Shown: one piece after another, positions 50,243-54,684 of the stretch
How the letters are laid out: each line of letters begins with the position of its first letter
How positions within the stretch are numbered: position 1 is the first letter of the stretch
Assembly (NCBI RefSeq): GCF_002270055.1
Contig: NZ_NIBG01000001.1
Location: 408,937-472,936, forward strand
Length of the DNA stretch: 64,000 bases
Source of the DNA: Anaeromicrobium sediminis
GTDB lineage: Bacteria > Bacillota > Clostridia > Peptostreptococcales > Thermotaleaceae
Direction of reading: 5' to 3'
The notes under the pieces: model-generated
The model's database searches: none
The model's input: only the letters and a program-made list of their open reading frames with translations
What the model was told of the DNA's origin: nothing
Position numbers and translations under genes: made by a program

Positions 50243-51022
50243 TTACTTCTTAAGTTTTTCTAATTCATCAATTAACTTTTCATTTAAAATCTTAATGTGA
50301 GTTCCTTTCATTCCTAGTGATCTAGATTCTATAACTCCTGCACTTTCAAATTTTCTTAAGGCATTAACGATTACTGATCTTGTAATACCTACTCTATCTG
50401 CTATTTTACTAGCTACTAAAAGACCTTCCGTTCCATCTAATTCATCGAATATGTGCTCTACAGCTTCAAGTTCTGAATACGATAAAGTTCCTATAGCCAT
50501 TTGTACAACAGCTTTTTTTCTAGCTTCTTCTTCAATTTCTTCACTTTTAGCTCTTAAGATCTCCATACCTACTACTGTAGCACTGTATTCAGCTAATACT
50601 AAATCTTCATCCACAAAGTCCTTATCAACTCTAGATAGAATTAATGTTCCTAACCTTTGTCCACTTCCATTAATAGGCACTATAGTGACTAACTTATTTG
50701 AAGTTTCAGTATCATACTTGAATATTTCTAACATTTTTTCTCCTGTTACATTATATTTTGTGTCCAAAATCTTTAGTAATTGTTCGTTGTATTCTGTAGG
50801 AAATTTTTGCGTTCCCGTATCAGAATCAAAAACTATTGGATTCTCACTTGGATCTACTAAATGTACCCCTAAAATTTTCCCTCTCTTACTAGATACATAT
50901 ACATTAGAATCTAATACATCACTTAAAGTTTTACATAATTCTGAAAAAGAAACAGGTACATTTCCTGATTGTTGTAATATTTTATTTAACTTTCTTGTTT
51001 TTTCTAATAATGAAATTGCCAT
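50243..51022 (-). CDS. codY: Global GTP- and branched-chain-amino-acid-sensing repressor CodY
   Basis: Repressor of nutrient-limitation genes in Firmicutes. 259 residues: an N-terminal GAF domain (about 1 to 155) that binds branched-chain amino acids, a helical linker, and a C-terminal winged helix with [20 protein letters not shown] (about 205 to 224), the invariant CodY DNA-binding motif. GAGGAGG precedes the ATG. The usual hslV-hslU-codY context is broken here: only an hslU fragment remains upstream. It lies next to the fla/che cluster, which CodY is known to repress in Bacillus. Confidence 0.97.
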
Positions 51023-51051: not shown

Positions 51052-51296
51052 TTATAGTATATAATCCTTTACGTCATTCCTATACGTTTGATTTTCTAGC
51101 TTATGTTGAATATACTTTTTGTCATTTGCAATACTTTTTTTATTCTTGTAATTTCAAAAGATACATTTTCCAACAAATTCTATAGAATCCTATGTAGTAT
51201 CCTTGTGCCAATTTCCTCAGTACCTTCATTTACAACAAAGGCCAAATGTACTATTTCCCCTATAGCATCATCTGTAAAATTAACTTCTATTCCCTC
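51052..51296 (-). pseudogene. hslU: Decayed C-terminal fragment of HslU (ClpY) ATPase
   Basis: Translated on the minus strand from 51296, the segment reads T-E-G-I-E-V-N-F-T-D-D-A-I-G-E-I, then E-E-I-G-T-R-I-L-H-R-I-L before a TAG (51180 to 51182). It continues in frame as N-L-L-E-N-V-S-F-E. After a frameshift the end reads D-V-K-D-Y-I-L, stop (51052 to 51054). This follows the HslU C-terminus closely (TEG...FTDDAI...TENIGARRLH...LLEDISFE...YIL). The AAA+ core is gone and stops interrupt the rest. HslVU normally precedes codY in Firmicutes, so this is the fossil of that operon. Confidence 0.85.
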
Positions 51297-51462
51297 TGTT
51301 TAAAACATTAATATTATTTTACCTCTTTAACTAGTATTTTTTCTTTTTTAGTCTTAGGATATTCTAATATCCTATTCATTTTGCGAACAATGGCTATACT
51401 ACCATATTTTCTATATTAATTCAAGGAAAATATTCTTTTTACTTTTTTTAATTTATTGCTCA
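51297..51462. other. Gap between topA and the hslU remnant
   Basis: 166 bases without a recognised gene. On the minus strand an open stretch of about 33 codons (from about 51411 to 51312, including R-K-M-N-R-I-L-E-Y-P-K-T-K-K-E-K) has no good ribosome binding site and is not identified. It contains a near-perfect palindrome TAGGATATT-CT-AATATCCTA at 51355 to 51374. It may be debris of deleted hslV or xerC-type genes, which is not verifiable from the sequence. Confidence 0.4.
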
Positions 51463-53532
51463 TTATTCTTTTTCTAATATGATTTTATGGCCACATTCTT
51501 TATTTAAGCATTCTTTAACCCTATCTTTTTTTCTTATTTTTTCGGCCATTAACGTTCCACACTTTTCACACTTCTCATCTATCGGTCTACTCCAAGACAC
51601 GAAATTGCAGTTTGGAAAAGTACTACACCCATAAAAGAGTTTTCCCTTTTTCGACCTTCTTTCTATTATGTCTCCACCATCACACTTAGGACATTTTACA
51701 CCTATTTTCTTTACAAAGGGCCTCGTATGTTCACATTCTGGATAACCAGAGCAAGCTAGAAAACGGCCATATCTTCCATATTTTATTACCATATTTTTAC
51801 CGCATTCTTCACAAATTTCATCAGTTTCTTCTTCAATCAACTCTATTTTTTTTATTTCTTCTTCTGCATGCTCTAGAGTTTTGGAAAATGGATTATAAAA
51901 ATCATCAATTACTTTTTTCCAATCCATCTCAGTTTCTTCTACCTTATCTAGCTGTTCTTCTAATTGTGCGGTAAAATACTCGTCTAATATATCATTAAAG
52001 TATTCCTTTAATAAATCTGTAACTATTATACCCAATTCTGTAGGTTTTAAAGCCTTACTCTCACGTTCCACATATCCTCTAGATAATATTGTAGATATGG
52101 TTGGAGCATAAGTACTCGGTCTTCCTATTCCCTTTTCTTCTAACTCTTTTACTAGAGAAGCTTCTGTAAACCTTGCTGGCGGCTGTGTAAAGTGTTGCAA
52201 TGGATCTATTTTTTTTGCCTTTAATTTATCTTGTATTTCCACCTTAGGCATTTCCTCTTCTTTTACAGTAGTATAAGAATATACCTTTAAAAATCCATCA
52301 AATACATTTTTTGATCCTGAAGCTTTAAATAAATATCCATTATTAATTATTTCTATAGAATAACTGTCAAATATGGCTTCCTTCATTTGACTTGCTACAA
52401 ATCTTTCCCAGATTAACTTATACAGCTTATTTTGATCTTTAGTCAGGTACTTTTCAACACTTTTAGGTGTTCTAGATGCGGAAGTAGGCCTTATGGCTTC
52501 GTGGGCATCTTGAATTTCCTTTTTAGTCTTTTTCTTTTCTTTGTATTCTCCCAAATAATCTTCTGAATAATTTTCTAAAATAAAATCTTTTGCATCATTT
52601 TTAGCTTCCTCAGATATTCTAGTGGAATCTGTTCTCACATAAGTAATCAAACCAACAGTAGCTCCTCTTTCAAGGTCAATACCTTCATATAACTGTTGAG
52701 CCACACTCATGGTCTTTTTAGTACTAAAACCTAATCTGTTAGATGCTTCCTGTTGAAGACTACTTGTAGTAAAAGGATTTCCTGGTTTTCTCTTTTTTTG
52801 TTTAGTCTTTATGTCACTTACATGAAAGTCATCATTTAATTTTTCTAAAATATTATCTACTTCTTCTTTATTATTTAATTCCTTCTTTCCCTCAGCGTCT
52901 CCATAAAACTTTGCAGTAAACTTTTTACTTCTCCCTTTAGAAAGCCCCACTTCTATAGTCCAATATTCTTGTGGTTGAAAGTCATCTATTTCCTTTTCCC
53001 TATCACATATCATCTTTGTTACTACAGACTGCACTCTTCCAGCACTAAGACCCTTTCTAACCTTTCTCCATAATAAGGGAGATATACTATATCCAACTAA
53101 TCTATCTAGTACCCTTCTTGCCTGTTGGGCATCTACTAAACTCTTGTTTATAATTCTAGGTTTTTTTACTGCTTTTTTTATAGCATCTTTAGTAATTTCA
53201 TTAAATTCAATTCTACATTTTTCTTTTTCATCTATAGATAATATATTACATAAATGCCATGATATGGCTTCACCTTCTCTGTCAGGGTCAGTTGCTAGTA
53301 AAACTTTCTTGGCCTTTTTATACTCTTTCTTTAACTCTTTAATCACAGGCCCTTTTCCTCTTATAGTTATATAATGAGGCTCATAATTCTCCTCTATATC
53401 TATTCCCATTTTACTTTTAGGGAGATCTCTTACATGTCCTACCGACGCCAAAACTTTATAGTTTTTTCCCAAAAACTTTCCTATAGTTTTTGCTTTTGCA
53501 GGAGATTCCACTATAACTAAAGATTTTCCCAT
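51463..53532 (-). CDS. topA: DNA topoisomerase I
   Basis: Type IA topoisomerase that relaxes negative supercoils. 689 residues: a Toprim domain starting V-I-V-E-S-P-A-K-A-K-T-I, with A-T-D-P-D-R-E-G-E-A-I-S-W-H near 90, and the active-site Tyr in L-I-T-Y-V-R-T-D-S-T-R near residue 297. Three C-terminal zinc-finger repeats, built of C-x-x-C pairs, cover about 565 to 685. The frame is open 20 codons further upstream, but GGAGGTG six bases before the ATG at 53532 and the family N-terminus M-G-K-S-L-V-I-V-E-S fix the start. It lies 72 bases downstream of dprA. Confidence 0.97.
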   Translation of the reverse strand: MGKSLVIVESPAKAKTIGKFLGKNYKVLASVGHVRDLPKSKMGIDIEENYEPHYITIRGKGPVIKELKKEYKKAKKVLLATDPDREGEAISWHLCNILSIDEKEKCRIEFNEITKDAIKKAVKKPRIINKSLVDAQQARRVLDRLVGYSISPLLWRKVRKGLSAGRVQSVVTKMICDREKEIDDFQPQEYWTIEVGLSKGRSKKFTAKFYGDAEGKKELNNKEEVDNILEKLNDDFHVSDIKTKQKKRKPGNPFTTSSLQQEASNRLGFSTKKTMSVAQQLYEGIDLERGATVGLITYVRTDSTRISEEAKNDAKDFILENYSEDYLGEYKEKKKTKKEIQDAHEAIRPTSASRTPKSVEKYLTKDQNKLYKLIWERFVASQMKEAIFDSYSIEIINNGYLFKASGSKNVFDGFLKVYSYTTVKEEEMPKVEIQDKLKAKKIDPLQHFTQPPARFTEASLVKELEEKGIGRPSTYAPTISTILSRGYVERESKALKPTELGIIVTDLLKEYFNDILDEYFTAQLEEQLDKVEETEMDWKKVIDDFYNPFSKTLEHAEEEIKKIELIEEETDEICEECGKNMVIKYGRYGRFLACSGYPECEHTRPFVKKIGVKCPKCDGGDIIERRSKKGKLFYGCSTFPNCNFVSWSRPIDEKCEKCGTLMAEKIRKKDRVKECLNKECGHKIILEKE

Positions 53533-53604
53533 GTATTCACCTCCATTTGTAAAAGCAATAGTAATTATATCAGAAAACTTTTTCCATTTCAAAATTTACT
53601 AATA

Positions 53605-54684
53605 TTACTTTATAAAAAATTTATTTCCTGGTAAGGTTTCTAATACTCCTTTTAGTTCAAGAAAAGTTAATATAGTACTTATATTTTGAATATTCCACTT
53701 CTTATCTTTTTCAATTTTCTCAATACTAACTGGCTGATTATCTTTTATATATTCATAAATTTCTTTTTCACTATCACTTAAACTTACTTCGTTTTTTTTC
53801 TTATTATATATATTTTCTAATTGCAGTTCCTCTAATATATCGTCTACGCAAGTAACTAATTTAGCTCCACTTTGTATGAGCTTATTAGTTCCCCCACTAA
53901 GTAGTGCAGTCACATGGCCTGGCAATGCAAAAACTTCTCTTCCCTGTTCTAAGGCATGATCTACAGTTATAAGAGTTCCACTCTTTAAAGCAGCCTCTAT
54001 GACAATTACACCCTTTGCAATACCACTGATTATTCTATTTCTCATAGGAAAATTTTCAGGTCTAGGTTTAGTTCCTATAGGAAATTCAGATATAATTGCA
54101 CCATTTTCTATTATTTTTTCCATTAGTGATTTATTTTCATGGGGATAGCATACATCTACACCAGTTCCTAGAACAGCATAGGTTCTTCCGCCATTTTCGA
54201 CGCAAGCCCTATGAGCTACTGTATCTATACCTCTAGCCATTCCACTGCCAATGGTAATTCCCCTATCTGAAAGTTCTTTAGAAATCTTATAAGCCATAGT
54301 TCTCCCATATGTAGATGCTCTTCTTGACCCAATTATGCTAATTATATCACACTTTTCCTTCTCAATACTTCCTCTTACATACAAAACAGTAGGTGGATTA
54401 TATATATTCCGTAAAAGTTCTGGGTATTCATTATCCCTTATGCCTATTACTTTAATCTCATATCGGTCTATAATTTCACGTATTTTTCCTATTTTGTTTT
54501 CCTTTTTACTTACTATTATATTTTCTACTACCTTTTCTTTCAAATTAAATTTTTCTTTATATCTATTAATATTTTCATTATAAACATCTTTAGCACAAGT
54601 TTCTTTTAATATTTTTCTCATGGTAGCATTTCCGATTCCTTCTATACTATGTAGCCATGCCACATAATGTTCTTCTTTATACAT
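53605..54684 (-). CDS. dprA: DNA processing protein DprA (Smf)
   Basis: Rossmann-fold protein that loads RecA onto incoming single-stranded DNA during transformation and is widespread also in non-competent bacteria. 359 residues: an N-terminal helix-hairpin-helix-like part, a core with G-S-R-R-A-S-T-Y-G (about 112 to 120), S-G-M-A-R-G-I-D-T-V-A-H near 143 to 154, F-P-M-R-N-R-I-I-S-G near 205 and L-P-G-H near 252, then a C-terminal winged-helix domain. GGGAG lies about eleven bases before the ATG. It is the first gene of the conserved minus-strand block. Confidence 0.95.
   Translation of the reverse strand: MYKEEHYVAWLHSIEGIGNATMRKILKETCAKDVYNENINRYKEKFNLKEKVVENIIVSKKENKIGKIREIIDRYEIKVIGIRDNEYPELLRNIYNPPTVLYVRGSIEKEKCDIISIIGSRRASTYGRTMAYKISKELSDRGITIGSGMARGIDTVAHRACVENGGRTYAVLGTGVDVCYPHENKSLMEKIIENGAIISEFPIGTKPRPENFPMRNRIISGIAKGVIVIEAALKSGTLITVDHALEQGREVFALPGHVTALLSGGTNKLIQSGAKLVTCVDDILEELQLENIYNKKKNEVSLSDSEKEIYEYIKDNQPVSIEKIEKDKKWNIQNISTILTFLELKGVLETLPGNKFFIK

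Follow-up and report, generated by a model that had tools for sequence, protein, structure and literature searches.

The gene order topA-hslV-hslU-codY, in which hslU (also called clpY or codX) codes for the ATPase of the HslVU protease, is found intact in two of the 14 Thermotaleaceae genomes with a codY match, both of them Geosporobacter (G007 and G012). In the genome closest to ours by CodY score (G006), hslV is intact and hslU (L135, G006:C1:1611848-1613234) is clean except that the frame shifts once around codon 80, where five A stand in a row; this may be a newly arisen null allele or an error of sequencing. For C. difficile, excerpts of one report (PMC7438776) describe a primary start mapped upstream of codY, SigA promoters for most of the regulator genes shown, and a second codY start, possibly SigF-type, inside the upstream gene. 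A search of the literature for the promoter of an hslVU/codY operon, judged by titles, gave nothing that seemed to bear on the point.

The locus described here lies in a window of 64,000 nucleotides, the whole stretch of Anaeromicrobium sediminis DNA that was analysed, taken from a 4.71 Mb draft genome of 55 contigs (G000; tool estimate 100% complete, 3.31% contaminated) whose nearest relatives in our tree are Thermotaleaceae, of the Clostridia. The minus strand carries dprA (53605-54684), topA, an interval of 440 nt and codY (Table 1), followed by frames that, judging by their translations, are probably flagellar genes. The topA coordinates are those of the longest frame; the TIGR01051 match begins at residue 25 of that frame, and the true start is probably further inside. 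Minus-strand translation of the interval holds a readable HslU C-terminus, and 51311 to 51052 on that strand are what remains of a dead hslU gene at its 3' end. Relative to the locus of Geosporobacter (L045, L048) and G006, the window shares the promoter motif, the neighbours and the codY ribosome-binding region, whereas it has lost hslV and roughly four fifths of hslU. We put a probability of roughly 0.88 on the reading that this is a decayed hslU end left by the loss of hslVU, that the operon promoter motif was kept, that codY is likely still transcribed from that old promoter, and that sister lineages suffered parallel losses.

Table 1. Coordinates of the features of the topA-codY region in the window
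Feature	Position	Strand	Evidence or remark
topA	51463..53592	-	intact upstream neighbour; TIGR01051 807.9 bits vs cut-off 456.4
Kept operon promoter motif (predicted)	51396..51424	-	TTGAAT-17-TAGTAT, TG one base before second hexamer
Possible HslU I domain relic, about residues 231-244	51317..51358	-	weak; 1.7 bits with full profile
Core hslU relic, HslU residues 379-437	51135..51311	-	profile HMM 58.0 bits; TIGR00390; DNA alignment
Last part of hslU relic, other frame, residues 436-465	51052..51144	-	profile HMM 6.7 bits, collinear with core
codY	50243..51022	-	intact; NF003170 385.6 bits vs cut-off 255

A sequence-only reading of this DNA had placed a fossil HslU C-terminus, with stops and a frameshift, at 51052 to 51296 on the minus strand, where hslV-hslU precedes codY in other Firmicutes. 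These coordinates mark the relic closely, and both its identity and its place were borne out. Our own HslU profile (30 rows, at least two of them copies of others) matched significantly, and the aligned translations run up to the native stop. The core frame is broken by TAA (51302-51300) and TAG (51182-51180), and the frame changes near 51144-51135. The whole-genome search with TIGR00390 (hslU) recovered the same segment (G000:C1:460074-460253, window 51138-51317; E 1.9e-13, 51.4 bits), again with one TAG and one TAA. The last piece (51144-51055) reaches the final position of the model and is followed directly by the native HslU stop, TAA 51054-51052; its assignment draws on collinearity and position and not on the score by itself, because dinucleotide shuffles of the interval, 200 in all, scored up to 7.5 bits. 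Aligned as DNA with G006, the interval scored 181 against a shuffle mean of 60.5 and maximum of 86 (0/200 reached 181), and the alignment runs continuously to the end of the G006 hslU. A chance resemblance might be suspected in intergenic DNA that is AT-rich and of low complexity, but none of 200 shuffles approached the core match, at the protein or the DNA level, and position and order fit; we count this explanation as refuted by the shuffle controls.

The relic shares with hslU residues 379-465, the topA/codY setting, order and strand, but it has no ATP-binding part and carries two stops and a frame change, so that no working HslU is possible. Its 51.4 bits, over residues 353-412 only, compare with a TIGR00390 cut-off of 362.45. 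The disabling stops and frame change, a position that an intact gene occupies in relatives, and relaxed codon constraint together mark it as a pseudogene. Upstream of the core, 51358-51317 may preserve a trace of the HslU I domain, but the match is weak: 7/1000 shuffles equalled its whole-profile score, for its protein alignments the corresponding counts were 9, 7 and 2 in 500, and at the DNA level five of six comparisons were not significant, the sixth being reached by 3/500. The candidate fits the gene order and is insecure. A supposed hslV start relic ('YGSIAIVRK', minus strand, 51406-51380) was rejected, since it overlaps with the -10 element and no hslV profile match in the window interval exceeded 4 bits. 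The sole Rfam match, below its gathering score (18.4 vs 39 bits), was taken as chance.

The profiles used show no HslVU protease elsewhere in the draft genome. HslV (TIGR03692) had no match in G000, which thus does not pass as carrying the HslVU system when judged by hslV in the genome; 13 of the 59 genomes searched, G000 counted, exceed the cut-off, and the same model matched 9 of 14 control genomes, 5 of them above cut-off. No HslU above the TIGR00390 cut-off was found in G000, against 13 of the 59 genomes searched. Nine matches to the HslU profile occur in G000. The three listed are two on a single 430-residue frame of contig C12, which from its length and match pattern is probably ClpX, and the relic; none of the remaining six is better than E 1.2e-26, the genome's best.

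Comparison of the interval among relatives places the relic in a series. The comparison drew on 80 codY loci from named genomes (21 with hslU above 200 bits) and on 16 Thermotaleaceae genomes, of which the two without codY are 68% and 76% complete. Besides the two intact Geosporobacter loci and the near-intact G006, the other 11 of the 14 genomes with codY, the window included, have only 214-546 nt between topA and codY. By profile, hslU relics were seen among these 11 in Thermotalea (71.7 bits), the window (58.0), G008 (12.2) and G015 (9.2). By DNA alignment the relic is significant in seven (window, G014, G015, G013, G008, G005 and G002; 0/200 shuffles reach the score in each), and not in G009, G004, G011 and G010 (50, 13, 17 and 20 of 200 shuffles, respectively), so that for these four the loss of hslU rests on absence. 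The relics of Thermotalea (L042/L143) and G015 (L137) share with that of the window a decayed hslU end before codY and a kept promoter motif; their break points differ, and Thermotalea retains more of hslU (residues 382-465). The Thermotalea metallivorans interval is a longer fossil with several hslU pieces, among them part of the I domain (residues 214-237, 6.8 bits); a possible hslV start there, seen by eye only, found no hslV profile confirmation above 4 bits. The sequence-only reading had also listed hslV, trmFO and xerC as missing from the locus. This is right for hslV, but trmFO and xerC do not count as lost from it: in Geosporobacter and G006 hslV begins 93-94 nt after topA, which leaves no space for either gene, and trmFO does not exceed its cut-off in any of the 16 family genomes. 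Outside the family, Caloramator quimbayensis (L091) has 1.4 kb between topA and hslV, a gap that measures 166 nt at two further loci from Caloramator.

It had further been argued that codY lost its usual operon promoter. If that promoter went with hslVU, codY would now depend on read-through from topA or on a promoter gained since, a proposal that the conserved motif upstream of the relic speaks against and that we regard as very improbable. In Geosporobacter and G006 the topA-hslV gap contains TTGAAT, 17 nt, TANNAT, and TG before the second hexamer; an extended -10 motif of this kind lies 34-40 nt past the topA stop in all 14 family members, hslVU present or not, and 0-2 of 500 shuffles per sequence hold it. 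It follows that hslVU went and the motif stayed. Of its 29 bases, the window copy has 20-23 in common with those of five other genomes, compared with 37-50% sharing at topA four-fold sites in the same pairs, and thus is better conserved than those sites. By its sequence it resembles a SigA-type extended -10 promoter, with a -35-like hexamer, a 17-nt spacer, TG, a -10-like hexamer and a conserved place. Beyond the family, 47 of 51 intervals without hslU contain a looser form of the motif (mean 0.56 and maximum 3 in shuffles). Of 21 loci that have hslV, 12 show this form, and eight of the other nine have just 18-49 nt between topA and hslV. In favour of a lost promoter, the -10 hexamer of the window (TAGTAT) is weak, and the motif falls below the 9-of-12 threshold of our consensus scan. 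That scan did not list it and instead gave three other sites in 500 bases, where shuffles lead one to expect 3.1; among the three is a chance-level match within the relic (51278-51250, minus). The second C. difficile start inside the upstream gene, as far as the excerpted report describes it (PMC7438776), points the same way, and by analogy read-through from topA may contribute to codY transcription. A terminator scan found none in the interval, and since none is expected by chance either, this is little informative. We infer that in the source organism codY is transcribed from 51424-51396 (minus).

We propose that the ancestor had promoter, hslV, hslU and codY directly after topA, and that in the window's lineage hslV and most of hslU were lost while the remaining hslU took on the stops and the frame change seen today. 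By alignment, the losses ended before the promoter motif on one side and before the codY ribosome-binding site on the other. Transcription of codY would most likely still begin at the old operon promoter and run through some 370 nt of untranslated leader, the relic included, and the limits of deletion would have been set by selection for codY expression and not for hslVU. From the tree, and assuming no regain, the same loss would have happened in parallel in sister lineages. The relic itself is the ordinary decay of a known gene, and it makes a useful comparative series, in which a single bacterial family shows the loss of a proteasome-like protease by stages, from intact genes through one frame change and then several fragments to nothing but the last codons. 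The pattern suggests that losses of hslVU respect the expression of the neighbouring global regulator codY, and it corrects the tempting inference that an operon which loses its first genes leaves its last gene without a promoter. An inverted repeat in the presumed codY leader (51356-51373, arms of 8 bases, centre of 2 bases; AGGATATTAGAATATCCT, minus strand) was compared by eye only with a CodY box, a reading that we did not adopt.

Conservation at the far end of the relic raised the further idea that the last hslU codons (TATACTATAAG, 51061-51051) survive as a part of the codY leader, acting either as a second -10 element or within the translation start region, so that repeated hslVU loss would have made the hslU end a working part of that leader in several Thermotaleaceae, and the relic a partly re-used control element. 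We consider both the kept codons and the wider re-use unlikely. In the alignment of hslU-less sister lineages, the columns at and near TATACTATAAG reach 0.71-0.86 identity and those elsewhere in the last 110 nt upstream of it 0.16-0.64; only the ribosome-binding site is higher, at 0.95. However, TATACTATAAG encodes the HslU C-terminus and was under protein constraint until the gene died, which can explain the identity. Among the eight listed members with the motif, a -35-like partner with more than three of six matches occurs only in G014 (spacing 19), and a correctly placed TG only in Thermotalea; an 11-base test passed 0.05 in three of 14 pairs, with the five window pairs unusable because the window row is shifted by 4 bases.

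The tree, built from DprA, TopA and CodY (30 rows, 1316 columns), suggests four separate losses of hslVU in the family, assuming no regain: in the window together with Lutibacter sp. B2, its neighbour (95/98); in G004 and G011; in G008, G015 and two Marinisporobacter MAGs; and in Thermotalea and Anaerosolibacter. The genome with the near-intact hslU, G006, sits inside the hslU-less genomes (branches 98/97 and 98/98), and the branch that unites all nine is weaker (89/95). A plain parsimony count does not separate gain from loss. Significant relics, present in three of the four groups, fix the direction as loss there; G004 and G011 have none. The HslU of G006 groups with that of Geosporobacter (SH-aLRT 81, not starred), as vertical descent predicts. 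On the wider set, the hslVU label across 82 rows requires at least eight changes, or seven if starred branches only are trusted. The window relic differs from G006 at 22 first, 8 second and 23 third positions of 59 codons; mutual differences among G006 and two Geosporobacter genes are 7-11, 0 and 18-27, so that second positions in the relic differ at 8/59 from each of the three genes, intact or near-intact, and at 0/59 among them. The eight second-position changes suggest that roughly 0.14 neutral changes per site have built up since the death of the gene, a rough estimate that covers only part of the whole branch. The earlier view of the loss as recent is fair in this sense only, the loss being late enough for a relic to be readable still. 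It is not special to this lineage: other members of the family lost the gene too, and their relics stand at several stages of decay. The record named Lutibacter sp. B2 (L040; listed under Flavobacteriaceae) falls within Thermotaleaceae by DprA, TopA and CodY, and its name looks wrong.
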